From: Ectothiorhodospira sp. BSL-9
Lineage (GTDB): Bacteria > Pseudomonadota > Gammaproteobacteria > Ectothiorhodospirales > Ectothiorhodospiraceae
Length of the DNA: 64,000 bases
Assembly (NCBI RefSeq): GCF_001632845.1
Contig: NZ_CP011994.1
Coordinates: 2,490,001 to 2,554,000, forward strand
Direction: 5' to 3'
Each line of letters opens with the position of its first letter. The first letter of the stretch is position 1. The notes beneath the pieces are model-generated. The model was not told the origin of the DNA, made no database searches, and saw nothing but the letters and a program-made list of their open reading frames with translations. Both the position numbers and the translations under genes were made by a program. Positions 6,897-64,000 of this stretch are shown here, in pieces.

Positions 6897-7613
6897 ATGT
6901 ACGCCCCCCATCGGATCTCAGGCGACCGCGACACCCTGGAAAGGATCAACAGGGAATTGAAGCCCAGGGACGCAAGCGCTCGGGTGGACTGGGCCCTGAG
7001 CTACTTTGGAGAGCGCATCGTGCTCAGTTCCAGCTTCGGGGCTCAGGCTGCGGTCATGCTCCATCTGGTGACTCAGGTGCGACCTCAGATCCCCGTCATC
7101 CTGGTGGACACGGGTTACCTCTTCCCGGAGACCTACCGTTTTGTGGATGAATTGACGGAGCAACTCGGTCTGAACCTTCAGGTGTACCGCTCCCCCTGGT
7201 CATCGGCGTGGCAGGAGGCCCGGTTTGGACGCCTCTGGGAGCAGGGGCTGGAAGGGCTGAAGCACTACAACCGCATCAACAAGGTTGAACCCATGCAGCG
7301 GGCCCTGAAGGAGCAGGGGGCGGATGCCTGGTTGGCGGGCCTGCGCCGCCAGCAGTCCGAGACCCGTGCCGGACTGGACGTGGTGGCCTGGCAGAATGGC
7401 AGGGCCAAGATACACCCCATCATCGACTGGACCGATCGGGACGTGCATCAGTACCTGACCCGACATGGGTTGCCTTACCATCCGCTGTGGCATCAGGGGT
7501 ATCTGTCCATCGGCGATGTGCACAGCACCCGATCGGTTCACGAGATCGAACATCCCGATCAGATGCGTTTTTTCGGCCTCAAGCGTGAGTGCGGTTTGCA
7601 CGAGCATGTGTGA
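6897..7613 (+). CDS. cysH: Phosphoadenylyl-sulfate (PAPS) reductase
   Basis: A 238-residue thioredoxin-dependent reductase converting PAPS to sulfite. The PP-loop variant [15 protein letters not shown] is near residue 45, followed by [13 protein letters not shown], the [14 protein letters not shown] block and [10 protein letters not shown]. The C-terminal KRECGLHEH carries the single catalytic Cys. The CC...CxxC cysteines of [4Fe-4S] APS reductases are absent, which points to PAPS rather than APS as substrate. ATG 6897 is the first start after the AT-rich promoter. It works with CysI and siroheme on the opposite strand. Two hairpins follow the stop. Confidence 0.93.
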
Positions 7614-52491: not shown

Positions 52492-52556
52492 TCACGTGTT
52501 CCCCCTCAATTTGAGCCCACGGCGGATGCCTGCTACATTTGTGCGGTTATCTTAAA

Positions 52557-52775
52557 ACTTCCGCAGGTGACCCGCGGGCCTCGACGGCCCATCCATCGGG
52601 TTGAAACGGGAAGCCGGTGACATCGCTCAGGCGATCACTCCGGCGCTGCCCCCGCAACGGTAAGTGGTGAACGTGGAGAACCCAGGCCACTGTGAGACCC
52701 CGTCCCCAGGGCGGATCTCATGGGAAGGCAGCCCCCCATGTTGAAGGCCCACCACAAGCCCGGAGACCGGCCTGT
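52557..52775 (+). promoter_or_regulatory. Cobalamin riboswitch
   Basis: A classic adenosylcobalamin aptamer. It starts with CCGCAGGTGACCCGCGGG, has GGGAAGCCGGTGA near 52608, the core CGCTGCCCCCGCAACGGTAAG at 52644-52663, the GGGAAGGC element near 52722, and the B12 box AGCCCGGAGACCGGCC near 52757. A GGTGCGGC/GCCGCACC hairpin (52795-52822) lies between the aptamer and cobW and may be part of the expression platform. It should repress cobW, cobN and chlD when cobalamin is plentiful. The 418-bp gap before cobW is filled by this element. Confidence 0.95.
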
Positions 52776-52909
52776 TGAAGACCAGGTGCCGCGGGGTGCG
52801 GCGTGCCGGGTGGAGCCGCACCGCGCCTGACCTCTCCTCCGTGGCACGTACCGCCCTTGTGGCGCATCCATCCCATCGATGCGCGGGCGGCGCGCGAGCG
52901 AGCATTTTC

Positions 52910-53992
52910 ATGACATCCAGATCAAGAATCCCTGCCACCATCGTCACCGGCTTTCTGGGCAGTGGCAAGACCACCCTGTTACGCCATCTCCTGGAGAATG
53001 CCCAGGGGCGGCGCATTGCCGTGATCGTCAACGAGTTTGGTGAGCTGGGCATGGATGGCGAGATCCTCAAGGGTTGCGGCATCGGCTGTGATGAGTCGGG
53101 AGAGGACGCCGGTACCCTTTATGAACTGGCCAACGGGTGCCTGTGCTGTACCGTGCAGGAGGCCTTCTATCCGGTGATGAAGGCCCTGATGGAACGGCGG
53201 GACGAGATCGATCACATCCTCATCGAGACCTCCGGGCTGGCGCTGCCCAAACCCCTGGTGCAGGCCTTCAACTGGCCGGAGATCAAGACCGGTTGCACCG
53301 TGGATGCCGTGGTTACCGTGGTGGACGTGCCCGCCACCGCCCAGGGACAGTTCGCCGCCAACCCCGAGGCAGTGGATCGGCAACGCCGCTCGGACCCGAA
53401 TCTGGATCATGCCTCCACCCTTCATGAGCTCTTTGAAGATCAGTTGTCGGCGGCCGATATCGTCGTGCTGAGCAAGACCGATCGGGTGGACGTAGCGGCG
53501 GTGGAACGGGTGGTGGAACTGGTTCGCAGTGAGATCCCACCCCAGGTAAAGATCGTCTCCAGCGACCATGGCCGGGTGGATCCGGCGCTGATGATGGGCC
53601 TGGGCAGTGCATCGGAAGCGCATATCCACCTGCGTGCCGGGCATCACGACCACGCCCATGGGGACGGGGATCATCACCACGATCATGACCACGACCCGTT
53701 CGACTCTGTGGTGGTGAGGCTGCCGCAGGTGGATCGAGACAGGCTAATGGAACAATTGCAGCAACTGGTGCGGGATCATCGCATCTTCCGCGTGAAGGGT
53801 TTCGCGGCCTTGCCGGAGAAGCGCATGCGCCTTGTGGTGCACGGGGTGGGGAGTCGATTTGACAGCTATTTCGACCGCCCCTGGGGGGCTCAGGAGGACC
53901 GCAGTACCCGCCTGGTGCTGATCGGTCAGGATCTCTCGGCCGATGCCCTGGAGCAGGCCCTGCAACCGGCCGCCCTGACAGCGACTGCCTGA
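52910..53992 (+). CDS. cobW: Cobalt-chelatase-associated GTPase CobW
   Basis: A 360-residue GTPase of the COG0523 family: Walker A GFLGSGKTTLL (about residue 14), VNEFGELG, the metal motif NGCLCCT (CxCC, about residue 78), Walker B-like ILIETSG, and the NKxD region SKTD. A His/Asp-rich segment (HHDHAHGDGDHHHDHDHD) sits before the C-terminal domain. CobW is thought to deliver cobalt to the chelatase CobN. ATG 52910 starts the conserved domain; the frame open back to 52775 lies in the riboswitch. The stop overlaps the cobN ATG (TGATG). Confidence 0.92.
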   Translation: MTSRSRIPATIVTGFLGSGKTTLLRHLLENAQGRRIAVIVNEFGELGMDGEILKGCGIGCDESGEDAGTLYELANGCLCCTVQEAFYPVMKALMERRDEIDHILIETSGLALPKPLVQAFNWPEIKTGCTVDAVVTVVDVPATAQGQFAANPEAVDRQRRSDPNLDHASTLHELFEDQLSAADIVVLSKTDRVDVAAVERVVELVRSEIPPQVKIVSSDHGRVDPALMMGLGSASEAHIHLRAGHHDHAHGDGDHHHDHDHDPFDSVVVRLPQVDRDRLMEQLQQLVRDHRIFRVKGFAALPEKRMRLVVHGVGSRFDSYFDRPWGAQEDRSTRLVLIGQDLSADALEQALQPAALTATA

Positions 53993-56900
53993 TGCATCTG
54001 CTGGCGGCACAACCCGGCGGGTTCGTCGATGACGAGTCGGTGATCACGCGTCTGGATCAGACGCCTGCCGATATTGTCATCCTCAGTGCCGCGGACACCA
54101 CCCTGGCCCTGCTGGCGGCCCAATGCCCGCAGGCCCGCGAGCCCGACAAAGGAGCAGGGGGCGCCTATCCTTCGGTCCGCCTGGCCAACCTGCTGCATCT
54201 GGGGCAACCCGCTTCGGTGGACCTGTACCTGGACGAAGTGCTGCAAAAGGCTCGCCTGATCATCATTGATCACCTGGGCGGCGAATCCTACTGGCCCTAT
54301 GGCACGGAGCAGGTGTGGGCCCTGTGCCGACGCAAGGGCATCCCGCTGGTGATGTTTTCCGGGGATAACACCGAGGATGGCAATCTGCTCATGAAGAGCA
54401 CGGTGGAGCCAGGCGTCTGCCGCACACTCTGGCGCTATCTGCGCGAGGGCGGGCCTGCCAACATTCGTGCCTTTTACGACTTTCTGGGCGCCACCTTCTT
54501 TGACCTGCCGCTGGAGCCGCCGCCGCCCCGACCGCTGCCCCCTATTGGCGTCTATCACCCTGAACAGGATGTGGGCACGGTATCGGCCTGGCAGGCGCGC
54601 TGGCATGCGGGGGCGCCGGTGGTGGCCATCCTGTTTTATCGCTCGCACCTGCAGGCGGGCAACACTGCCGTGTTCGATGCCCTGTGTCAGGCCCTGCTGA
54701 GCCGGGGCCTCAACCCCCTGCCCATGGCCCTGGTCTCCCTGAAGGACCCGCCCTGCCTGGAGATGGTGCGTCGCCTGTGCCGGGAGCAGGGCGTGGCGCT
54801 GATCATGAATGCCACCGCCTTCTCCCGGGCCCAGGGCGCGGACGGCGAACAGGCCCTGGCGGACGACCGGCCCGTGCTGCAGGTGATCCTCTCTGGAGGC
54901 AACGAAGACAACTGGCGGCAGGATGTGCATGGGTTGCAACCCCGGGACATCGCCATGCAGGTGGCCCTGCCGGAGATGGATGGCCATGTGATTTCCCGGG
55001 CGGTGAGCTTCAAGGGGCTGGAACGACGCTGCCCGCACACCCAGACCGATGTGGTGCACTATCAGCCCCATGCCGAGCGGATCGAGTTTGTGGCCACCCT
55101 GGCCGAGCGCTGGTGCCGGCTGCGCAGCACCGCCAATGGGGACAAGCGCCTGGCCCTGATCCTGGCCAACTACCCCACCCGTGAGGGCCGCCTGGGTAAT
55201 GGCGTGGGGCTGGACACCCCCGCGTCGGTGATCGGTATCCTGCGGCGCCTGCAGGGCGAGGGCTATGGCGTGGAGGGTATCCCCGATGACGGCGATGCCC
55301 TGATGAGCCGCCTGTGCGAAGGCGTGACCAACGATCCGCAGCAGCTGGCCCAGCGTCCCGCCTGGCAAAGCCTGTCCATGGCCGACTACCAGCGTTATTT
55401 CGATGGGTTGCCCGAGTCCAGCCGCGAGGCGGTGCTGGCACGCTGGGGCAGGCCGGAACAGGACCCCATGGTGCGACAGCAGCGATTCATGATTGCCGGC
55501 ATCCGCTGTGGCCGGGTGTTCGTGGGTATTCAGCCGGCCCGCGGTTATCACCTGGACATGATGGCCAACTATCACGATCCAGACCTGGTCCCCCCACATT
55601 ACTACCTGGCCTTCTACGCCTGGCTGCGGCTGCAGTTTGGCTGTGATGCCATCATCCATGTGGGCAAGCACGGTAATCTGGAGTGGCTGCCGGGCAAGAG
55701 CGTGGCCTTGAGCGAACACTGCTGGCCGGATCTGATTTTTGGCGCCATGCCCCATCTCTACCCCTTCATCGTCAACGACCCGGGGGAGGGCACCCAGGCC
55801 AAGCGCCGCGCCCAGGCCGTGATCATCGATCACCTGATGCCGCCGCTCACGCGGGCCGAGAACTACGGGCCGACCCGCGATCTGGAGCGCCAGGTGGACG
55901 AATACTACGAGGCGCTGATGCTGGATCGCCGTCGCGCCGCGGTGCTCAGGAAAGGCATTCTGGACACCATCGTCGCCCAGGATCTGCATCGGGACCTGGG
56001 CCTGGATGCACCGGCCAGCGAAGAGGAAGAGCAGTGCCTGCTCAACCGCACCGATGCCTACCTGTGTGAGCTCAAGGAGAGCCAGATCCGCGATGGTCTG
56101 CACATCTTCGGAGAATCTCCCGAGGGCCGCCAGGAGCGCGACACCCTGCTGGCCCTGGCTCGCTACCCCATGGGCCACGGGCGTGACGGCAACGACAGCC
56201 TGATCCGGGCCCTGGCCCGTGACCTGGACCTGGGGGAGGGCTTCGATCCCCTGGATGCCACCTGGGCTGATCCCTGGACAGGCCCCCGACCCCACGTGCT
56301 GCAAACCGCCGTCACCGACGAACCCTGGCGCCATCATGGTGACACCCGCGAACGGCTGGAAACCCTGGCCCAGTCCATCCTGGAAAACGGCCTGCCGGAT
56401 GCGCAGGCCGCCTGGCCCCAGACCCGCCAGGTGCTGGAGCGCATCCACACGCGCCTGCAACCGGATCTGCGCGCCTGCGGTCACCGGGAACTGGGTGCCC
56501 TGTGCGATGGGCTGGAAGGGCGCTTTGTACCGCCCGGGCCCAGTGGGGCCCCTTCCCGGGGCCGTCCGGATGTGTTGCCCACCGGGCGCAACTTCTTCTC
56601 GGTGGATGCCCGCGCCGTGCCCACCGCCACCAGCTGGACCCTGGGGATGAAATCAGCGGCACTGCTGGTGGAGAAGTTCATGCAGGAGCATGGGGATTAT
56701 CCCCGCGCCATTGGCCTGTCTGTCTGGGGCACCGCCACCATGCGTACCGGTGGCGATGACCTGGCCCAGGCCTTTGCCCTGATCGGTGTGCGACCGCGCT
56801 GGTCCGCCGGCAGTCATCGGGTGACCGACTTCGAGATCCTGCCCCTGTCGGTGCTGGATCGCCCCCGCATCGACGTGACCCTGCGGGTATCGGGTTTTTT

Positions 56901-57783
56901 CCGGGATGCCTTTGCCCATGTGATGCGCCTGTTCGATGCCGCCGTGCAGGCGGTGGCGGAGCAGGATGAGCCGGAAGACATGAACCCGATCCGCGCCCGC
57001 ATCCACCGGGAGGCTGCAGAACTGGAGGCCCAGGGTACGCCGGCCGACTTGGCTCGTCGGCAGGCGGGATTCCGGGTCTTTGGTGCCCAGCCCGGCGCCT
57101 ATGGGGCCGGCATGCAGGGGCTGATCGACTCCCGCCACTGGCAGGAGGATGCGGACCTGGCCCAGGCCTATCTCAACTGGGGGGCCTATGCCTACGGCCA
57201 GCAGGACCATGGTACCCGCGTGCCTCAGGTGCTGACCCGGCGGCTGTCGGGGATCGATCTGGTGGTACAGAACCAGGACAACCGGGAGCACGACCTGCTG
57301 GATTCGGACGACTATTACCAATTTCAGGGGGGCATGACCGCAGCGGTGCGCCACTTCAGTGGTCGTCAACCCGAGATCTACCATGGCGATCACAGTCATC
57401 CCCAGGCCCCGCGCATGAACACCCTGGAGTGGGAGATCAGCCGGGTGATCCGCTCCCGGGTCACCAACCCCAAGTGGATTGAAGGGGTCAAGCGACACGG
57501 TTACAAGGGGGCGTCGGAAATGGCCGCCACCGTGGAATACCTGTTCGCTTACGATGCCACGGCCCGGGTGGTGCGGGATGATCAGTACGCCCGCGTCACC
57601 GATGCCTACATCAACGACCCCGACACCCGTGGCTTCATACAGGCCCACAACCCGGCCGCCCTGCACGAGATGTGCGAACGCCTGCTGGAGGCCATGCAGC
57701 GAGGCCTGTGGGAAAGCCCGGGCAACTATCGCCAGCAGCTGGAAAACCACCTGCTGCAGACCGAAGAACACCTGGAAGGCTGA
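53992..57783 (+). CDS. cobN: Cobaltochelatase large subunit CobN
   Basis: A 1263-residue protein, the usual length for CobN. It inserts cobalt into hydrogenobyrinic acid a,c-diamide. Conserved CobN blocks are visible: LANYPTREGRLGNGVGLDTP, IFVGIQPARGY-type (RVFVGIQPARGYHLDMMANYHDPD cited in part), IHVGKHGNLEWLPGKSVALS, YPFIVNDPGEGTQAKRRAQAV, and DQYARVTDAYINDPDTR near the end. It overlaps cobW by one base and is followed 4 bp later by the chlD-type gene encoding the AAA and VWA partners. Confidence 0.95.
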   Translation: MHLLAAQPGGFVDDESVITRLDQTPADIVILSAADTTLALLAAQCPQAREPDKGAGGAYPSVRLANLLHLGQPASVDLYLDEVLQKARLIIIDHLGGESYWPYGTEQVWALCRRKGIPLVMFSGDNTEDGNLLMKSTVEPGVCRTLWRYLREGGPANIRAFYDFLGATFFDLPLEPPPPRPLPPIGVYHPEQDVGTVSAWQARWHAGAPVVAILFYRSHLQAGNTAVFDALCQALLSRGLNPLPMALVSLKDPPCLEMVRRLCREQGVALIMNATAFSRAQGADGEQALADDRPVLQVILSGGNEDNWRQDVHGLQPRDIAMQVALPEMDGHVISRAVSFKGLERRCPHTQTDVVHYQPHAERIEFVATLAERWCRLRSTANGDKRLALILANYPTREGRLGNGVGLDTPASVIGILRRLQGEGYGVEGIPDDGDALMSRLCEGVTNDPQQLAQRPAWQSLSMADYQRYFDGLPESSREAVLARWGRPEQDPMVRQQRFMIAGIRCGRVFVGIQPARGYHLDMMANYHDPDLVPPHYYLAFYAWLRLQFGCDAIIHVGKHGNLEWLPGKSVALSEHCWPDLIFGAMPHLYPFIVNDPGEGTQAKRRAQAVIIDHLMPPLTRAENYGPTRDLERQVDEYYEALMLDRRRAAVLRKGILDTIVAQDLHRDLGLDAPASEEEEQCLLNRTDAYLCELKESQIRDGLHIFGESPEGRQERDTLLALARYPMGHGRDGNDSLIRALARDLDLGEGFDPLDATWADPWTGPRPHVLQTAVTDEPWRHHGDTRERLETLAQSILENGLPDAQAAWPQTRQVLERIHTRLQPDLRACGHRELGALCDGLEGRFVPPGPSGAPSRGRPDVLPTGRNFFSVDARAVPTATSWTLGMKSAALLVEKFMQEHGDYPRAIGLSVWGTATMRTGGDDLAQAFALIGVRPRWSAGSHRVTDFEILPLSVLDRPRIDVTLRVSGFFRDAFAHVMRLFDAAVQAVAEQDEPEDMNPIRARIHREAAELEAQGTPADLARRQAGFRVFGAQPGAYGAGMQGLIDSRHWQEDADLAQAYLNWGAYAYGQQDHGTRVPQVLTRRLSGIDLVVQNQDNREHDLLDSDDYYQFQGGMTAAVRHFSGRQPEIYHGDHSHPQAPRMNTLEWEISRVIRSRVTNPKWIEGVKRHGYKGASEMAATVEYLFAYDATARVVRDDQYARVTDAYINDPDTRGFIQAHNPAALHEMCERLLEAMQRGLWESPGNYRQQLENHLLQTEEHLEG

Positions 57784-57787
57784 TCCC

Positions 57788-58891
57788 ATGACTGCCCTGT
57801 CGACCCAATATCCGTTCACCGCCCTCAAGGGGGTGCCCCAGCTGCAGAATGCCCTCCTGCTGGCGGCCATCGATCCCTTGATCGGTGGTGTGCTCATCGA
57901 GGGGCCGAGGGGCGCTGCCAAGACCACCAGTGCCCGGGCCCTGGCGCAGCTGCTACCCGATGGCGGCTTCGTCAATCTGCCCCTGGGGGCCAGCGAGGAG
58001 CAACTGCAGGGTTCGCTGGATATCGAGGCGGCGCTCAAGCAGGGGAACGCCTGTTTCAAGCCGGGCCTGCTGGCCCGCGCCCACCAGGGGGTGCTCTATG
58101 TGGACGAGGTGAATCTGCTGCCGGATGCCCTGGTGGATCTGTTGCTGGATGTCTCGGTGAGCGGTGTGAATCGTGTGGAACGTGACGGCATTTCCCATCA
58201 GCATGAGGCGCGCTTCGTGCTGGTGGGCACCATGAACCCGGAGGAGGGCGAGTTGCGGCCCCAGTTACTGGATCGCTTCGGTCTGCTGGTGCGCCTGAAT
58301 GACATGATCGACGCCCCCACGCGCCGGGAGATCGTGCGGGCGCGTCTGGCCTTCGAGGCGGATGCCGAGGCTTTCATCCGTGCCCATGCCGCGGACCAGA
58401 CGACCCTTCAGGATCGTATCCGCCAGGCCCGTGCCCGGCTCGAATCCCTGGCCTTCACCGATGCGGTGCATGATCGGGTGAGTGAATACTGTTTTGCCGC
58501 CGGCGTGGAAGGAGTCCGCGCGGACCTGGTGATGCTGCGGGCCGCCCGGGCCCATGCCGCCCTGGAAGGTGCCTCCCATATCCGGGATACGGACATCGAC
58601 GCGGTGCAGGCGCTGGTGCTGGCGCATCGGCGCCGTGATCGCTCCTCGTCGTCTCCCGGTGATGCATCGAGCCCCGACTCACCAGGGGCAGACCGACCTG
58701 ATCCGCAGCAAGGTGCAGGTTCATCCCGATCGCCTGACAGAAGCATGGAGAACCCGGGTGGATCCCAGGCCGGAGCGCCTGTCCATACGGATCGCCCCGG
58801 CGATGATCAGGATTGGGGTGCACTGCCTCCCGAACCCACCCCCATCAGGGCCCTGGCCGACGTGAGGCCGCTGCCGGTAAAAAAGCCCTGA
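57788..58891 (+). CDS. chlD: ChlI-like AAA subunit: zero-frame product of fs-chlD
   Basis: A 367-residue AAA+ ATPase of the magnesium/cobalt chelatase type. Walker A is GPRGAAKTTSA (about residue 38), Walker B VLYVDEVNLL, sensor region FVLVGTMNPEEGELRPQLLDRFG. After residue 280 comes a Ser/Pro/Asp-rich linker (SSSSPGDASSPDSPGADRP), the kind that separates the AAA and integrin-like halves of ChlD. The frame stops at 58889-58891, six codons after the linker. A dnaX-like slippery site A AAA AAG at 58879-58885 precedes the stop, and the VWA domain continues in the -1 frame. The zero-frame product would be the small subunit (ChlI-like), and the frameshift product the medium subunit. Confidence 0.9.
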   Translation: MTALSTQYPFTALKGVPQLQNALLLAAIDPLIGGVLIEGPRGAAKTTSARALAQLLPDGGFVNLPLGASEEQLQGSLDIEAALKQGNACFKPGLLARAHQGVLYVDEVNLLPDALVDLLLDVSVSGVNRVERDGISHQHEARFVLVGTMNPEEGELRPQLLDRFGLLVRLNDMIDAPTRREIVRARLAFEADAEAFIRAHAADQTTLQDRIRQARARLESLAFTDAVHDRVSEYCFAAGVEGVRADLVMLRAARAHAALEGASHIRDTDIDAVQALVLAHRRRDRSSSSPGDASSPDSPGADRPDPQQGAGSSRSPDRSMENPGGSQAGAPVHTDRPGDDQDWGALPPEPTPIRALADVRPLPVKKP

Positions 58892-58930
58892 CGCGCTCGC
58901 CGGCGGCCGGGCGGCTGCCGGATGGGCGCG
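58864..58930 (+). promoter_or_regulatory. Programmed -1 ribosomal frameshift signal in chlD
   Basis: The heptamer A AAA AAG occupies 58879-58885 in the correct zero-frame phase (GTA AAA AAG CCC TGA). A Shine-Dalgarno-like GAGG at 58864-58867 lies 11 bases upstream, as in E. coli dnaX. Downstream, six bases later, CGCGC (58892-58896) pairs with GCGCG (58926-58930) with an inner CCGGC/GCCGG stem. A one-base backward slip reads GCC CTG ACG and enters the VWA frame. Confidence 0.8.
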
Positions 58931-59553
58931 CACCGGGAATGGGGCGGTGGCGTCGCCTGCAAAGCCACCCGGAGGGGGGGATCCACTGGCACCGCACGCT
59001 GCTCAACAAGGGCCCGGATCCGCTGCACCGCCGGCATCTGATCTACCGCCCCCGCCGGGGTGGCGCCGGTATGCTGTACTGCCTGGTGCTGGACTGCTCT
59101 GCCTCCATGCTCAAACAGGACAAGCTGGCCATGGCCAAGGGTCTGATCACCGCCTGGGCGCATCAGTTGTACACCCAGCGGGCAGAACTGGCGGTGGTGG
59201 GGTTTTCAGGTCAGGGTGCCTACATCCTGAGGCCACCCTCCCGGGCCCCCCTGTGCAGTGACGCCTGGGTCGCGCCCATCCCCGGTGGTGGGGGCAGCCC
59301 CGTGGGGGCCGGTCTGCAACGGGCACAGGCCCTCATGGCCCAGGTGAAACGCCGCCATCCGGATCAGCCCATCGGCCTGTGGCTGCTCACCGACGGTCGC
59401 ACCACCCAGCAACCCCCGCGCCCCGACATCGCGGACTTTTGTCAGGTGGTGGATTTCGAGACCGAGACCATCCGCCTGGGCGGTGCCCAGCGCATCGCCC
59501 GATCCTGGCAGGCACCGTGCTGGCCAGTGAGTGCGTTCATGGAGTCCGGTTGA
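58885..59553 (+). CDS. chlD: VWA-domain part of ChlD, reached by -1 frameshift
   Basis: About 222 residues in the frame one base behind the ATPase frame. It contains the chelatase integrin-I-like domain with MIDAS motif DCSASM (DxSxS), the Thr/Asp loop near PDQPIGLWLLTDGRTT, and GIHWHRTLLNKGP at its start, equivalent to the linker-to-VWA junction of ChlD. Its only ordinary start is ATG 58939, with no good ribosome site, which would cut into the domain edge. A slip at the upstream heptamer instead joins it to the ATPase and linker as one protein of about 588 residues, close to normal ChlD. It partners CobN. Ends 6 bp before the convergent ABC ATPase gene. Confidence 0.85.
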   Translation, partial: ALTRSPAAGRLPDGRAPGMGRWRRLQSHPEGGIHWHRTLLNKGPDPLHRRHLIYRPRRGGAGMLYCLVLDCSASMLKQDKLAMAKGLITAWAHQLYTQRAELAVVGFSGQGAYILRPPSRAPLCSDAWVAPIPGGGGSPVGAGLQRAQALMAQVKRRHPDQPIGLWLLTDGRTTQQPPRPDIADFCQVVDFETETIRLGGAQRIARSWQAPCWPVSAFMESG

Positions 59554-59559
59554 ATCCAC

Positions 59560-60333
59560 TCAGCGATAGCCCATGACGAACGGCAGTCCATCCTGATGGG
59601 CGATCCCCACATCCACCTGGTACACCGCGCGCAGGTGTTCAGGGGTGATGACCTCCTTGGGAGGGCCTGAGGTGACCACCTGTCCATCGTCCAGGAGCAC
59701 GATCCGATCGGCCAGTTGCGTGGCGATGTTGATCTCGTGGAGCACCACCAGGATGCCCTGCTGCTGCATCCGTGCCCGCTCGCGCAGGATCTCCAGGGTG
59801 TCGCGCTTGTGCTTCATGTCCAGATGATTGGTGGGCTCATCCAGAAGCAGGTAGGGGGTGTCCCGCACCAGGGCCCGGGCAATGGCGGCCTTCTGGCGTT
59901 GCCCGCCGCTGAGTTCATCCAGGGGTTGGGTGGCCAGCGAGGTGAGTTCCATTCGCTCCAGAACCCGTTCCACCTTTTCCAGTGACGCTTGATCCGGATA
60001 CCAGGGGCTATCCCGAAGCCCGAGCAACACACTCTCGAACACGGTCATGGGATAGACGATATCCGTGGCCTGCGGTACATAGGAGAGATGCCGGGCTGCC
60101 TGCCACCGGGGCATGCGCTGCAGGTCCTGGCCATTGAGGGTGATCTGTCCGCTGCGCGGTTTGAGCAGGCCCATGGCGCATTTGAGCAGGGTGGTCTTGC
60201 CCGAGCCATTGGGCCCGAGCAACGCGACCACCTCGCCGGGACGGACCTGGAGTCCTGCATTCTTCAGGGTGCGTATTCCGCGCCCATAACCGAACGAGAC
60301 ATCATCCACCCTCAGCATATCCAGCGGATTCAT
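59560..60333 (-). CDS. FecE/BtuD-type ABC transporter ATP-binding protein
   Basis: A 257-residue ABC ATPase. Walker A is GPNGSGKTTLL (about residue 40), the Q-loop is SYVPQATDIVYP, signature LSGGQRQKAAIARAL, Walker B LLLDEPTNHLD, switch VVLHEINIATQL. The C-terminal VYQVDVGIAHQDGLPFVMG is typical for iron-chelate and corrinoid importers. It overlaps the permease gene by four bases. The cargo is not identified; the TonB receptor in the same operon suggests an iron chelate or a corrinoid. Confidence 0.9.
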   Translation of the reverse strand: MNPLDMLRVDDVSFGYGRGIRTLKNAGLQVRPGEVVALLGPNGSGKTTLLKCAMGLLKPRSGQITLNGQDLQRMPRWQAARHLSYVPQATDIVYPMTVFESVLLGLRDSPWYPDQASLEKVERVLERMELTSLATQPLDELSGGQRQKAAIARALVRDTPYLLLDEPTNHLDMKHKRDTLEILRERARMQQQGILVVLHEINIATQLADRIVLLDDGQVVTSGPPKEVITPEHLRAVYQVDVGIAHQDGLPFVMGYR

Positions 60334-61421
60334 GCGCCACCTCCGGCACGACGGCGCAGGATCAGGTAGATGAACAACGGCGATCCCACGAAGGCGGTGA
60401 CCACGCCCACCGGCAGCACCACCGGTGCAAAGGCATGCAAGGAGATGAGGTCCGCCACCACCAGCAGCAGTCCGCCCATCAGGGCCGTGGCCGGGAGCAG
60501 AAACCGGTGATCCGTGCCGATCATCAGGCGAGCCAGATGCGGGGCCACCAGGCCCAGAAAACCGATCCCCCCGGTAAAGGCCACCACCACAGCCACCAGC
60601 AGGGAGACCAGCAGCATCATGAGGATGCGCAGTCGCTCCACCGGCAGGCCCAGGCTCCTGGCCGTGTCATCTCCCAGCAGCAGACGGTTCAGATCCACCG
60701 CTCGCCACAAAAAGATCGGCAGCACCACAAGCAGCGTCACGGTGATCAGGGTGGCGCTTTCCCAGTTGGCCCGGCTGAGGCTGCCTACCGTCCAGAACAT
60801 CACCTCGCGGGTGGCATAGGCGTCGGAGAAGTAGATCACCAGTGTGGTGCAGGCACCAAAGAAGTACATGAGCGCGATCCCGGCCAGGATCAGACTCATG
60901 GGGGTGGCCCCTTTCCACTGACCGATCAGCAGGATCAGCAGCGACACTCCGATGGCAAACAGAAAGGCATTGGCCACGATGCCCACCATGCCAAAGGCGG
61001 AAAACCCGAAAATGATCACCAGCGCCGCCCCCAGGGAGGCGCCGGAGGACAACCCCAGGGTGAAGGGCGAGGCCATGGGGTTACGCAGCAGGGTTTGCAG
61101 GATCACGCCGCCCAGCGCCAGCCCCATGCCGGCAGTGAGGGCGGTGATCAGGCGTGGCAGGCGGATGTTCCAGACGACGTTGTGGATATCCTGCGGCACC
61201 AGCTCCCCAGGAAAGGCCGGGGCCATCAGGGCCAGGACGGTCTGCACGACAGGGATGTCCATCGCTCCCAGGGTGAGACCATGGAGGCTGATGGCCACCA
61301 GAGCCAGGGCCAGGGCCGTCAGCAGCAGGCCACGGCGACGAGTCTGCTGCCGATAGGTGGCAATGGCATCAGGCAACCGGGCAGGGCCGGTTGCTTTGGG
61401 GGTGGGTTCCATGGGGCTCAC
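60330..61421 (-). CDS. FecCD-family ABC permease
   Basis: A 363-residue permease with about ten helices. FecCD signatures are NIRLPRLITALTAGMGLALGGVI, LLRNPMASPFTLGLSSGASLGAAL, GIGFLGLVAPHLARLMIGTDHRFLLP, and the C-terminal VLPVGVVTAFVGSPLFIYLIL. An N-terminal cytoplasmic tail of about 28 residues precedes the first helix; MEPTPK at 61412 is an alternative start. It overlaps the binding-protein gene and the ATPase gene by four bases each. Confidence 0.92.
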   Translation of the reverse strand: MSPMEPTPKATGPARLPDAIATYRQQTRRRGLLLTALALALVAISLHGLTLGAMDIPVVQTVLALMAPAFPGELVPQDIHNVVWNIRLPRLITALTAGMGLALGGVILQTLLRNPMASPFTLGLSSGASLGAALVIIFGFSAFGMVGIVANAFLFAIGVSLLILLIGQWKGATPMSLILAGIALMYFFGACTTLVIYFSDAYATREVMFWTVGSLSRANWESATLITVTLLVVLPIFLWRAVDLNRLLLGDDTARSLGLPVERLRILMMLLVSLLVAVVVAFTGGIGFLGLVAPHLARLMIGTDHRFLLPATALMGGLLLVVADLISLHAFAPVVLPVGVVTAFVGSPLFIYLILRRRAGGGA

Positions 61422-62575
61422 AGATCCTTGAAGCCACTTTGCCGGGACAGGTGTTCATACAGTCCAGGTGTGCCATAAAACGTGTGCAGGATGTCCTCGC
61501 CCCGGGCCTGCACGTCCAGATCCTCAAGGGCGTCTGGATAGAGGATCTTGCCCATGCGGATCAGATCCACCAGCCCGGTGGCCAGATCCCAGCCCATGTA
61601 GGTGCCCTTGAAGCGGTGAACCTGACCATCACGGATGGCCGCCACGCCTTGAAGCCGGGCATCCTCCAGCACACTGTCCAACGCCACGTGGCTGGCCTGG
61701 GAGGGGGTGTGCAGAAAGATATGTTCCGGGTCCCACTGCAGGAGTTGTTCGGCCGATACTTCCCCATCGCGGCCGCGCCGTGTGGATGCCACGTGAGTGG
61801 CGCTCAGTTGTTCCAGCGGGTAATAAAAGGCCACGTTGCTGAACAGATTGGTGCGATGAGCCAGATAGACGCGGGGCGTGCCTTCGCCCTGGATGCGGGA
61901 CTGTATCGACGACACTTCCTGGCGGTAACGGTCAAGCAGTGCCTGGGCACGGGCTTCCTGATCGAGAATCATGCCCATCAGACCATAGGCCCGCTCGATT
62001 TCATCCATGATCCTTTCGGGATCCCGTTCCCGGCCCAGGGTGCTTACTGCCACGACCGGCACGCCCAGCTGTCGTTGCAGTCGATCCGCATGATCTGCCA
62101 TGGCCTGGGTGGAGTCGCCTCGGCTGAAGGCCCAGTAGAAGAACACATCGGGTGAGACGCTCACCACCTTTTCCAGGTTGATGTCGGATCCAGGCTGACC
62201 GCCCCCCAATTGGGGGATGTCATCCACATGGGCCACCGCCAGTGCCTCGATGGTCTTTTCCCGGGAAAACCGGGAGCCGAACATGTCGCCGGGAATGCCC
62301 ACCAGCCGATCTGCGGCCTGCAGATGAACCACCATGCGATAGGCATCCACGTTCACCGTGGCGATCCGTTCCACCTGCTTGGGCACGCTGACCTGCCGGC
62401 CCAGCATGTCCTGGATTTCCTGCATGGGTGGGGCTGTTCCGGTATCCACGGCCTGGGAGTTGCCGGAGGAGGGCGCATCGCAGGCCGCGAGCATCATGAG
62501 TACGATGACCCCCGTCAGAATCACGACGAGGGCATCGAACCGGTTTGATCGGTGGGATGGGGAGGAGGCTGTCAT
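61418..62575 (-). CDS. ABC transporter substrate-binding lipoprotein (FecB/BtuF fold)
   Basis: A 385-residue class III binding protein. The N-terminal hydrophobic segment ends MMLAACDAP, a lipobox, so it is probably a membrane-anchored lipoprotein. The mature part has DMLGRQVSVPKQVERIATVNVDAYRMVVHLQAADRLVGIPG, the VSVSPDVFFYWAFSRG cleft region and the C-lobe EQLLQWDPEHIFLHT. The pattern fits binding proteins for iron chelates or corrinoids. ATG 62575 starts the signal; the frame extends back but into the intergenic region. Same operon as the TonB receptor, 49 bp after its stop. Confidence 0.87.
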   Translation of the reverse strand: MTASSPSHRSNRFDALVVILTGVIVLMMLAACDAPSSGNSQAVDTGTAPPMQEIQDMLGRQVSVPKQVERIATVNVDAYRMVVHLQAADRLVGIPGDMFGSRFSREKTIEALAVAHVDDIPQLGGGQPGSDINLEKVVSVSPDVFFYWAFSRGDSTQAMADHADRLQRQLGVPVVAVSTLGRERDPERIMDEIERAYGLMGMILDQEARAQALLDRYRQEVSSIQSRIQGEGTPRVYLAHRTNLFSNVAFYYPLEQLSATHVASTRRGRDGEVSAEQLLQWDPEHIFLHTPSQASHVALDSVLEDARLQGVAAIRDGQVHRFKGTYMGWDLATGLVDLIRMGKILYPDALEDLDVQARGEDILHTFYGTPGLYEHLSRQSGFKDL

Positions 62576-62624
62576 GGAATGATTCCAGAGTTGAGTGATG
62601 AGCTGCCTGATGAGATGTGGCACG

Positions 62625-64000
62625 TCAGAATGTCCATGTGGCACTGAGCCGGATATCCCGGCCGGGCTCGTCCCGCACCAGTAGACGCCCATCCGCATCC
62701 GTATCGGCCAGTGAGGTCTGCTCGGCATAACGGGTGTCCAGGAGGTTGCGCACGACCAGGGAGAGGCTCAGGCGATCGTCCATCCCGGGCTGCCACTGGG
62801 CCTGAATGTCGTGCAGGCTGTAACCGTCCCGTTGGGGGGCATCGTCGGGTACCCGGGTGAGGTCATCCACCCAGGTGAACGTGTAGCCCAGGGTGAGGTT
62901 GTCCAGAGCCGCCCAGCGCTGATCCCAGATGAACCGGTCACCTCCGGTACCGCCCCGTCGGCGAGAGACAGACTGAGGATTGCCATCCTCATCCACGGTT
63001 TCGGCGCTGAAGAAGGAGAGCCGGGTATCGTGTCGGCCGATACCCCAACTGGCGCGGATCTCATAGCCACGGGTGCGCAGGGTGTCCTGGCGGTTTCTGA
63101 TCGTGCCCACGAAAGGTGGCTCATGGCCGAACCGCCCACTGGCAAACGGGCTTCCCCAGGGATCATCCCGGTCGATGCTGTTGCGCAGGCGGGTGTCGAA
63201 CACCGTGAAGTCCAGGGTCAGCCGGTCGCTCTCCAGCAGGGCATCCCGCGCGTCATAGCTCACACCGGCCTCACGTCGTCGGGATTTCTCTGCCTTGAAG
63301 GGCTTGCCATCGTTGAGGTTGGTGTCCTCATTGAGGTAGGCCATCCAGCCGATGGGTATGATCCCGGCGCCACTCACGGCCTCGCCATAGCCAGCAAAGG
63401 CGGTCCAGCCGCCGAAGATATCCACCTGTGCGCTGACGTTAGGGGAAATGGCATTGCCCGATAGCGTCTGCTGGTGGAACTCGGTGGAGAAGTCGTCGAA
63501 GCGTGCCCCCAGGGAGAGCGACCACCGCCCCTGGTGCATGCGATTCTGGATGAAGGCACCCAGGTTACGGGACTCGCTGGTGATGCTCGGACCTTCCGTA
63601 CGACCTTCTTCCAGGTAGTAGTCCATGCCGAGGGTCAGACGGTGTTGGATGTCCGCGTGATCAAAACGGAAGGTGTTCCTTGCGTCGCCGCCGTATTCCC
63701 GCGTGCGGGTGCGGGTGCCGTCATCGAGTCTTTGCAGCTGATGATCGGTGTAATAGAGACGACCGATCCAGTCCAGCCACTGCTGGGGCGCATCATGGGT
63801 GTGTTGCAGGGTCCAGCGATGCTGTCGCAGACGTTGACCCACCGCGTCCTGGGCCTGGTCCTGACGAGGATCTCCGAAGTCGCTCCCCCGTGATCCATAG
63901 GGGTGGTCCCCGGTGAGCGTGTGACGCTGGGCGCCCAGTCGGATCTCGTGTCCCTGGGTGGGAAGGCGGCTGAGTCGGAACAGGTAGTCCCGATCCTGCC
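62625..64000 (-). CDS. TonB-dependent receptor, C-terminal part (cut by window end)
   Basis: The frame is open from its stop at 62625 to the end of the window; no stop occurs before 64000, so the signal and plug lie outside. About 458 residues of barrel are visible, with FAGYGEAVSGAG (FRAP-like position), a LNDGKPFKAEKSRRREAGV segment equivalent to the NPNLKPE box, and the C-terminal LSATWTF, ending in Phe as usual. The internal Met at 63842 is not the true start. With the binding lipoprotein and FecCD/E genes it forms a complete uptake operon. Siderophore or corrinoid are both possible. Confidence 0.88.
   Translation of the reverse strand, partial: QDRDYLFRLSRLPTQGHEIRLGAQRHTLTGDHPYGSRGSDFGDPRQDQAQDAVGQRLRQHRWTLQHTHDAPQQWLDWIGRLYYTDHQLQRLDDGTRTRTREYGGDARNTFRFDHADIQHRLTLGMDYYLEEGRTEGPSITSESRNLGAFIQNRMHQGRWSLSLGARFDDFSTEFHQQTLSGNAISPNVSAQVDIFGGWTAFAGYGEAVSGAGIIPIGWMAYLNEDTNLNDGKPFKAEKSRRREAGVSYDARDALLESDRLTLDFTVFDTRLRNSIDRDDPWGSPFASGRFGHEPPFVGTIRNRQDTLRTRGYEIRASWGIGRHDTRLSFFSAETVDEDGNPQSVSRRRGGTGGDRFIWDQRWAALDNLTLGYTFTWVDDLTRVPDDAPQRDGYSLHDIQAQWQPGMDDRLSLSLVVRNLLDTRYAEQTSLADTDADGRLLVRDEPGRDIRLSATWTF

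Follow-up and report, generated by a model that had tools for sequence, protein, structure and literature searches.

A cobN-linked chlD gene with the features of a programmed -1 frameshift in Ectothiorhodospira sp. BSL-9

Analysis of a 64,000-nucleotide stretch of the Ectothiorhodospira sp. BSL-9 genome (termed here the window) supports, at the level of sequence, a programmed -1 frameshift on A_AAA_AAG through which a single gene beside cobN would encode both an AAA-only protein and an AAA-VWA protein. The gene is the published fs-chlD, the mechanism of which is already known; very probably it belongs to a cobaltochelatase, within a riboswitch-led cobW-cobN-fs-chlD group, with both of its products acting together with CobN. 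As envisaged here, ribosomes that do not slip would stop one codon past the heptamer, releasing an AAA+ protein of 367 residues that resembles ChlI or CobS; ribosomes that slip by -1 on the heptamer, helped by a hairpin, would produce an AAA-VWA protein of 588 residues that resembles ChlD or CobT; and the pair, once assembled, would power the insertion of cobalt by CobN. That frameshifting takes place in BSL-9, and how efficiently, is inferred, as are the contribution of the hairpin, the complex and cobalt as the metal, and both products are putative chelatase subunits; the anatomy, phase and conservation of the heptamer, the hairpin, selection on the VWA frame and linkage to cobN are observed.

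Background

In both BchI/ChlI with BchD/ChlD and in the CobS/CobT pair of CobNST, an AAA+ motor and an AAA-VWA partner serve a large subunit, as is proposed for fs-chlD; unlike fs-chlD, which is one gene, each of these pairs is encoded by two. Both Mg-chelatase and CobNST need the small as well as the medium subunit. Antonov 2020 (MBE) reportedly tied fs-chlD to the cobalt chelatase. Linkage to cobN and B12 genes is not found in all published fs-chlD genomes.

A first-pass annotation of the window, made from the sequence alone, had stated that frameshifting chlD genes are described in cobalamin producers, and the available portions of the literature agree (PMC3711429, PMC5009743, PMC9227772). 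According to the available text of the 2013 report of their discovery, 23 such genes were found in six genera, among them Pseudomonas, Burkholderia and Delftia, and the cassettes of three relatives gave 63, 40 and 10% frameshifting in E. coli reporters (PMC3711429). A section on chlD frameshifting in the accessible part of a 2016 review describes A_AAA_AAR and a Pseudomonas stem-loop (PMC5009743). A 2022 paper, which names the gene fs-chlD and assigns it to Co-chelatase, places it in its main text and Table 1 in stages 1 and 8, both of which lack a chlorophyll pathway, and names Anaerolineaceae that have both fs-chlD and chlI (PMC9227772).

The BSL-9 gene shares with published fs-chlD an AAA module in frame 0, a VWA domain in the -1 frame, A_AAA_AAR and a downstream stem-loop; that is, it has collinear AAA+ and VWA frames, an in-phase heptamer, a computed stem-loop and cobN/B12 linkage. 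It departs from published fs-chlD in having bchI, bchD and a split bchH in the same genome, and coexistence with a chlorophyll pathway is not among the eight stages of the 2022 main text (PMC9227772). What is added here to the known picture is this coexistence with Mg-chelatase genes and the existence of fused relatives that have cobN and in which no small subunit was found.

Results and discussion

Organization of the locus

The features of the locus, in window coordinates, are as follows.

52548..52789, plus strand: cobalamin riboswitch (Rfam RF00174) ahead of cobW-cobN-fs-chlD; 97.2 bits, gathering threshold 31.5
52775..53992, plus strand: cobW, cobalt/cobalamin G3E GTPase, as the longest ORF; TIGR02475, 487.9 bits, cut-off 332.1
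53992..57783, plus strand: cobN, large cobaltochelatase subunit; TIGR02257, 1592.6 bits, cut-off 822.05
57788..58891, plus strand: fs-chlD frame 0, with AAA+ module, AAA lid and linker; predicted ChlI-like short product of 367 residues
58864..58867, plus strand: GAGG, a doubtful Shine-Dalgarno (SD)-like element 11 bases 5' of the heptamer
58879..58885, plus strand: slippery heptamer A_AAA_AAG, in phase
58885..59553, plus strand: fs-chlD -1 frame, with linker and VWA domain; C-terminal part of the predicted ChlD-like long product
58889..58891, plus strand: frame-0 stop TGA, one codon past the heptamer
58892..58930, plus strand: hairpin, putative stimulator, six bases 3' of the heptamer

The true start of cobW is probably further inside than the longest-ORF start at 52775, since the TIGR02475 match begins at residue 50. 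That cobN lies directly upstream of the frameshift gene, as had been proposed, is confirmed by its TIGR02257 match and by the fs-chlD start codon, an ATG at 57788, which is four bases 3' of the cobN stop. The frame-0 product of fs-chlD matches PF07728, PF17863 and PF01078 over their cut-offs, TIGR02442 and TIGR02030 below theirs, and PDB 1g8p at E 2.6e-72. Across the junction the -1 frame reads AAA AAA GCC CTG ACG CGC (KK-ALTR) and stays open until the stop at 59551-59553; it matches PF13519 at 28.7 bits (cut-off 27) and TIGR02442 at 3.2e-20 (below cut-off), and its MIDAS motif DxSxS is present as LDCSAS. With the frame shifted, the length of the AAA-VWA fusion would be 588 residues. ORF anatomy and domain matches thus bear out the first-pass claim that the AAA-linker ORF ends at 58891 and that the VWA coding sequence carries on in the -1 frame.

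Two further observations concern the surroundings. An 852-codon open frame runs antisense to cobN (53926-56484, minus strand) and is probably a by-product of high G+C. Downstream of fs-chlD, positions 59560-63998 of the minus strand hold genes of an ABC importer (FecE/BtuD-like, BtuC-like and a binding protein) and apparently part of a TonB receptor, its name being a guess from its sequence.

The slippery heptamer: phase, chance and conservation

The last frame-0 codons are GTA AAA AAG CCC TGA; hence A_AAA_AAG at 58879-58885 is, as first claimed, in the right phase for a -1 slip. The heptamer sequence by itself is not rare (two seen versus 1.1 expected in 64 kb), and A_AAA_AAR-NNN-TRA occurs 14 times genome-wide versus 8 times for the reversed pattern; rarity of the heptamer alone, considered as evidence, is not significant by either the 64-kb or the genome count. 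What exceeds chance is the phase, place and conservation of the heptamer, not its sequence.

Conservation was examined in a named set consisting of the best 80 of at least 583 confirmed relatives, a set biased towards close relatives, and the frame of the VWA domain was assigned by protein similarity alone, before the search for heptamers. Among these best 80 of at least 583, the VWA domain lies in the -1 frame at 78 loci and in frame at one (L097, Marinomonas gallaica), and one locus (L044) has no VWA match; at every one of the 78 loci with a -1 frame a single codon separates A_AAA_AAR from the frame-0 stop, as it does in L044 and in 7/7 same-genus copies. L044 (Cupriavidus basilensis OR16) keeps the heptamer, at 7020; its -1 frame stops after 65 codons and the MIDAS motif is absent, which reflects either a draft error or a lost VWA domain. 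As a weak negative control, seven loci in which bchI is followed by bchD were considered, where the bchD VWA domain is at a -1 offset by chance; no in-phase slippery heptamer occurs in the overlap of any of the seven.

A set of 86 sites was formed from 79 named sites (from the best 80 of at least 583) and 7 genus sites; the heptamer is A6G at 58 of the 86 and A7 at 28. The A before the first lysine codon and the A ending that codon are present at 86/86 sites by the way the sites were picked, and both positions are also present at 78/78 loci picked without the heptamer (from the best 80 of at least 583). Elsewhere in fs-chlD genes lysine is encoded by AAA 76 times and by AAG 212 times, and A-ending codons account for 606 of 8049 proline, valine, alanine and threonine codons; the codons at the heptamer run against gene usage. 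All 86 frameshifted copies (79 from the best 80 of at least 583) have the P-loop GxxGxAK[ST], which reads GPRGAAKT in the source product, and none of the 86 has GxxGxGK[ST].

Transcriptional rather than ribosomal slippage on the A run could also give mixed products, a reading with which the run of ten A in L138 agrees, as does the trend, in the available text of the 2013 report, towards more frame change with longer A runs in reporters (PMC3711429). Against it, the run here is only A6 and 58 of the 86 sites (79 from the best 80 of at least 583) are A6G; bacterial transcriptional slippage is described, in the accessible part of the 2016 review, on runs of nine A (PMC5009743); and an in-phase heptamer with a hairpin at six bases fits the ribosome. 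A transcriptional origin is therefore highly improbable.

Selection on the VWA frame and alternatives to a fusion product

Read in the -1 frame, the VWA domain has a pN/pS of 0.12-0.27 for five close genus pairs and of 0.51 and 0.75 for two distant ones, and third positions hold 42/54 and 66/95 of the differences; the VWA frame is under purifying selection. This bears on whether the true frame is continuous and the break an indel in the A run, introduced by sequencing or assembly, or whether the gene has decayed and is dead. The same assembly does have a possible homopolymer indel, the split bchH just outside the window, and in-frame fused relatives exist. A sequencing error in the A6 run is nevertheless ruled out, because the -1 VWA frame and A_AAA_AAR are conserved in relatives: the offset and heptamer recur in separately sequenced genomes, namely in 78/80 named loci (the best 80 of at least 583), in 7/7 genus copies and in 4/11 further copies from other families. 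With both frames under purifying selection as well, an indel or decay has next to no probability.

It is also conceivable that two separate proteins are made, with the VWA domain having its own start or being translated by re-initiation after the stop, so that no fusion arises. BchI and BchD are, after all, separate genes, and the BSL-9 VWA frame has an ATG at 58939 and a CTG overlapping the frame-0 TGA. The ATG at 58939, however, is missing from the nearest relatives: L009 lacks ATG, GTG and TTG in the first 45 codons past the heptamer, and L010 has only a GTG elsewhere. Over the 86 sites (79 from the best 80 of at least 583), 77 have no ATG in those first 45 codons, and 21 have no ATG, GTG or TTG; an own VWA start is judged unlikely because of these missing start codons. 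Separate translation would, moreover, give no account of the heptamer, of its spacing to the stop or of the hairpin, and a frameshift product was measured for relatives in reporters, according to the available text of the 2013 report (PMC3711429). Two unfused proteins are thus a very unlikely outcome, and a frameshifted AAA-VWA fusion is the preferred reading.

The hairpin and the SD-like element

The computed fold at 58892-58930 confirms the first-pass claim of a hairpin six bases downstream of the heptamer. The 50-base stretch containing the hairpin folds at -35.7 kcal/mol (z -3.1; 1/200 shuffles as good); the 81-base stretch 58855-58935 as a whole is unremarkable (z -1.3; 20/200 shuffles as good). 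Compared with other stretches of the same locus, the BSL-9 hairpin has a z of -5.0, and over the 86 sites (79 from the best 80 of at least 583) the mean z is -2.3 and the hairpin is the strongest fold of its locus at 40. In some relatives it is weak against background (L027-L029, z -0.2 to -0.5; L011, z -0.8).

Base pairs were counted in five of the seven genus sequences, L011 (-22.5 kcal/mol) and L012 (-31.1 kcal/mol) having been left out because their stem differs; an alignment of Pseudomonas hairpins, covering 26 of the 79 named sites (from the best 80 of at least 583), was read by eye. In the five genus hairpins both partners have changed in 3/16 pairs; 90% of cells are paired versus 33-46% when the sequences are slid. 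The covariation score was reached by only 4/500 shuffles, in a small sample of five sequences; in the same five, the tally of doubly changed pairs was reached by 157/500 shuffles and that of pair types by 276/500. The hairpin shows some compensatory changes.

The E. coli dnaX cassette has an upstream Shine-Dalgarno stimulator in addition to its heptamer and hairpin. The first-pass annotation had called the BSL-9 site dnaX-like, with the same three-part layout, on the basis of an SD-like GAGG 11 bases before the heptamer. The GAGG is present at 58864-58867, but 26% of positions in that gene equal its pairing with anti-SD, the average across all sites being 36%, and the tetramer occurs at 5/7 genus sites and at 16/79 named sites (from the best 80 of at least 583). 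The three-part layout is not supported because the element does not stand out from background and is not conserved; the heptamer and hairpin parts stand, since dnaX has the same A_AAA_AAG, likewise followed within a few bases by a hairpin. The dnaX-like label is faulty in another respect, because the polarity is reversed: the dnaX shift ends translation early and yields the short product, as stated in the available part of the 2016 review (PMC5009743), whereas the fs-chlD shift avoids the stop and would yield the long one.

Linkage to cobN and coexistence with magnesium-chelatase genes

Among named loci (from the best 80 of at least 583), cobN lies upstream on the same strand at 78 of 79, the one miss (L025) having too little flank. 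Of the 10 genus genomes searched, seven carry both cobN (75-100% identity) and fs-chlD, and three (G002, G003 and G007) carry neither; bchI is present in 10/10. Genus-wide, then, fs-chlD follows cobN, not bchI, and this co-occurrence speaks for assigning fs-chlD to cobalt and bchI/bchD to magnesium.

The source genome has a bchI at G000:C1:3345159-3346121 (TIGR02030, 519.9 bits, cut-off 466.95), the P-loop of which reads GDRGTGKST, followed by bchD. Its bchH is in two ORFs that overlap by four bases (L130:3722-7506, equivalent to G000:C1:2473721-2477505), approximately 12.5 kb upstream of the window. The split is due to a one-base difference at a C/G homopolymer and represents either a sequencing indel or a real lesion; bchH is a single ORF in both sister genomes compared.

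The earlier statement that there is no separate small-subunit gene is therefore true of the window but not of the genome, which has bchI, bchD and the split bchH. The accompanying hint, that the small subunit should come from fs-chlD since none is nearby, was wrong, because the genome holds a bchI over the family cut-off together with bchD and the split bchH; fs-chlD is not the sole small-subunit source of the genome, a separate bchI being present. A genome search for a separate chlI or cobS, which had been suggested as a check, thus found the former type, as bchI, and no CobS-family member over cut-off. No CobS- or CobT-family member (TIGR01650, TIGR01651) exceeds the cut-off in any of the 10 genus genomes or in G046, and neither model is among the matches of P0001 or P0002 at E 0.001. 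A CobS/CobT-like pair in one genus member, at G009:C33:34167-36600 (L125, L126), scores 109-119 bits, far below cut-off, and is perhaps another MoxR/VWA system.

In-frame fused relatives and the need for a short product

An even draw across the class comprised 281 genomes and gave at least 19 matches at E 1e-40; from these, the 11 non-genus genes with a likeness to fs-chlD and not to bchI were compared. Four of the 11 are frameshifted at A_AAA_AAR (G198, G160, G172, G259) and seven have AAA and VWA fused in frame (G261, G266, G091, G200, G061, G087, G197). All 11 genomes have cobN, in pieces in G197 and G198. Like L097, the fused genes have the same domains in the same order as fs-chlD, and cobN accompanies them in 7/7 of the fused genomes from the class-wide draw; unlike fs-chlD, they form one continuous frame.

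G261 (L142) is a single-contig genome of 3.6 Mb, and G266 corresponds to L141, with cobN and an in-frame AAA-VWA fusion. G061 (L143), a very reduced genome of 0.4 Mb, keeps cobN and an AT-rich in-frame fused chlD with many A runs in its linker. In G091 (L140) the VWA domain, beside that of G200 (L139), is apparently frame-broken near its end. The in-phase A6 heptamer is absent from the linkers of seven of the eight fused genes (those of the seven class-wide genomes and L097); it is present only in G061, where it means little because the sequence is AT-rich and A runs are frequent. A slippery site of opposite polarity was also considered for the eight fused relatives, with eight hexamer types, and was rejected, none but G061 having an in-phase A6; L097 has two in-phase GGGAAA strings.

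Two of the seven fused genomes, G087 and G197, have a CobS-family gene over cut-off. In the other five (G261, G266, G091, G200, G061) no other BchI/ChlI- or CobS-family gene scores above 37 bits, the highest such score being 36 bits, and none was found in the four frameshifted genomes outside the genus either. Among named genomes the search, limited to the BchI/ChlI family, took 20 of the 80 loci, that is, 19 fs-chlD loci plus L097: no second BchI/ChlI-family gene exceeds 35 bits in any of the 19 fs-chlD genomes (from the best 80 of at least 583) or 22 bits in the genome of L097. In many genomes, therefore, a small subunit may come from the frameshift alone, while fused relatives seem to manage without a separate one. 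Two products are perhaps not obligatory, since some fused relatives possess cobN although a search for small subunits of the BchI and CobS families found none in them; on the other hand, a diverged AAA+ protein missed by the models, or proteolysis, may supply the small subunit in the fused genomes.

From this perspective the frameshift could be real and yet serve to control how much of a single AAA-VWA enzyme is made; the short product would then be incidental, and CobN would be served by the fusion, either by itself or together with BchI. Five genomes that combine cobN with an in-frame fusion, and in which no BchI/ChlI- or CobS-family small subunit was found, point in this direction, as does the bchI of the source genome, which could serve as the small subunit. 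Pointing the other way are the heptamer and adjacent stop kept in 78/80 named relatives (the best 80 of at least 583), the 19/19 fs-chlD genomes searched (from the same best 80 of at least 583) in which no second BchI/ChlI-family gene was found, the requirement of Mg-chelatase and CobNST for both subunits, and the diverged small subunit that the fused genomes may have. A role limited to dose is thus rather unlikely, and two working products remain the preferred reading for fs-chlD.

A broader scenario can be offered as a tentative possibility. A phototrophic lineage would run two AAA/VWA motors: magnesium would be handled by BchI and BchD, encoded separately, and cobalt by a dedicated frameshifting chlD that is gained or lost with cobN and not with the magnesium genes; sister lineages would have swapped the frameshift for an in-frame fusion with no separate small subunit, so that the fusion alone could serve CobN and the frameshift would mainly set dose or assembly.

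Conclusions

Because the mechanism is already published, the BSL-9 gene is mainly a clean added case of fs-chlD, and its coexistence with separate magnesium-chelatase genes is a modestly interesting genomic setting. It does provide a natural setting in which cobalt- and magnesium-chelatase motors coexist and in which insulation between their subunits is testable. More generally, chlD occurs in frameshifted and in in-frame fused form, and in several genomes of each type the search found no further small subunit; this contrast makes the need for the short product directly testable.
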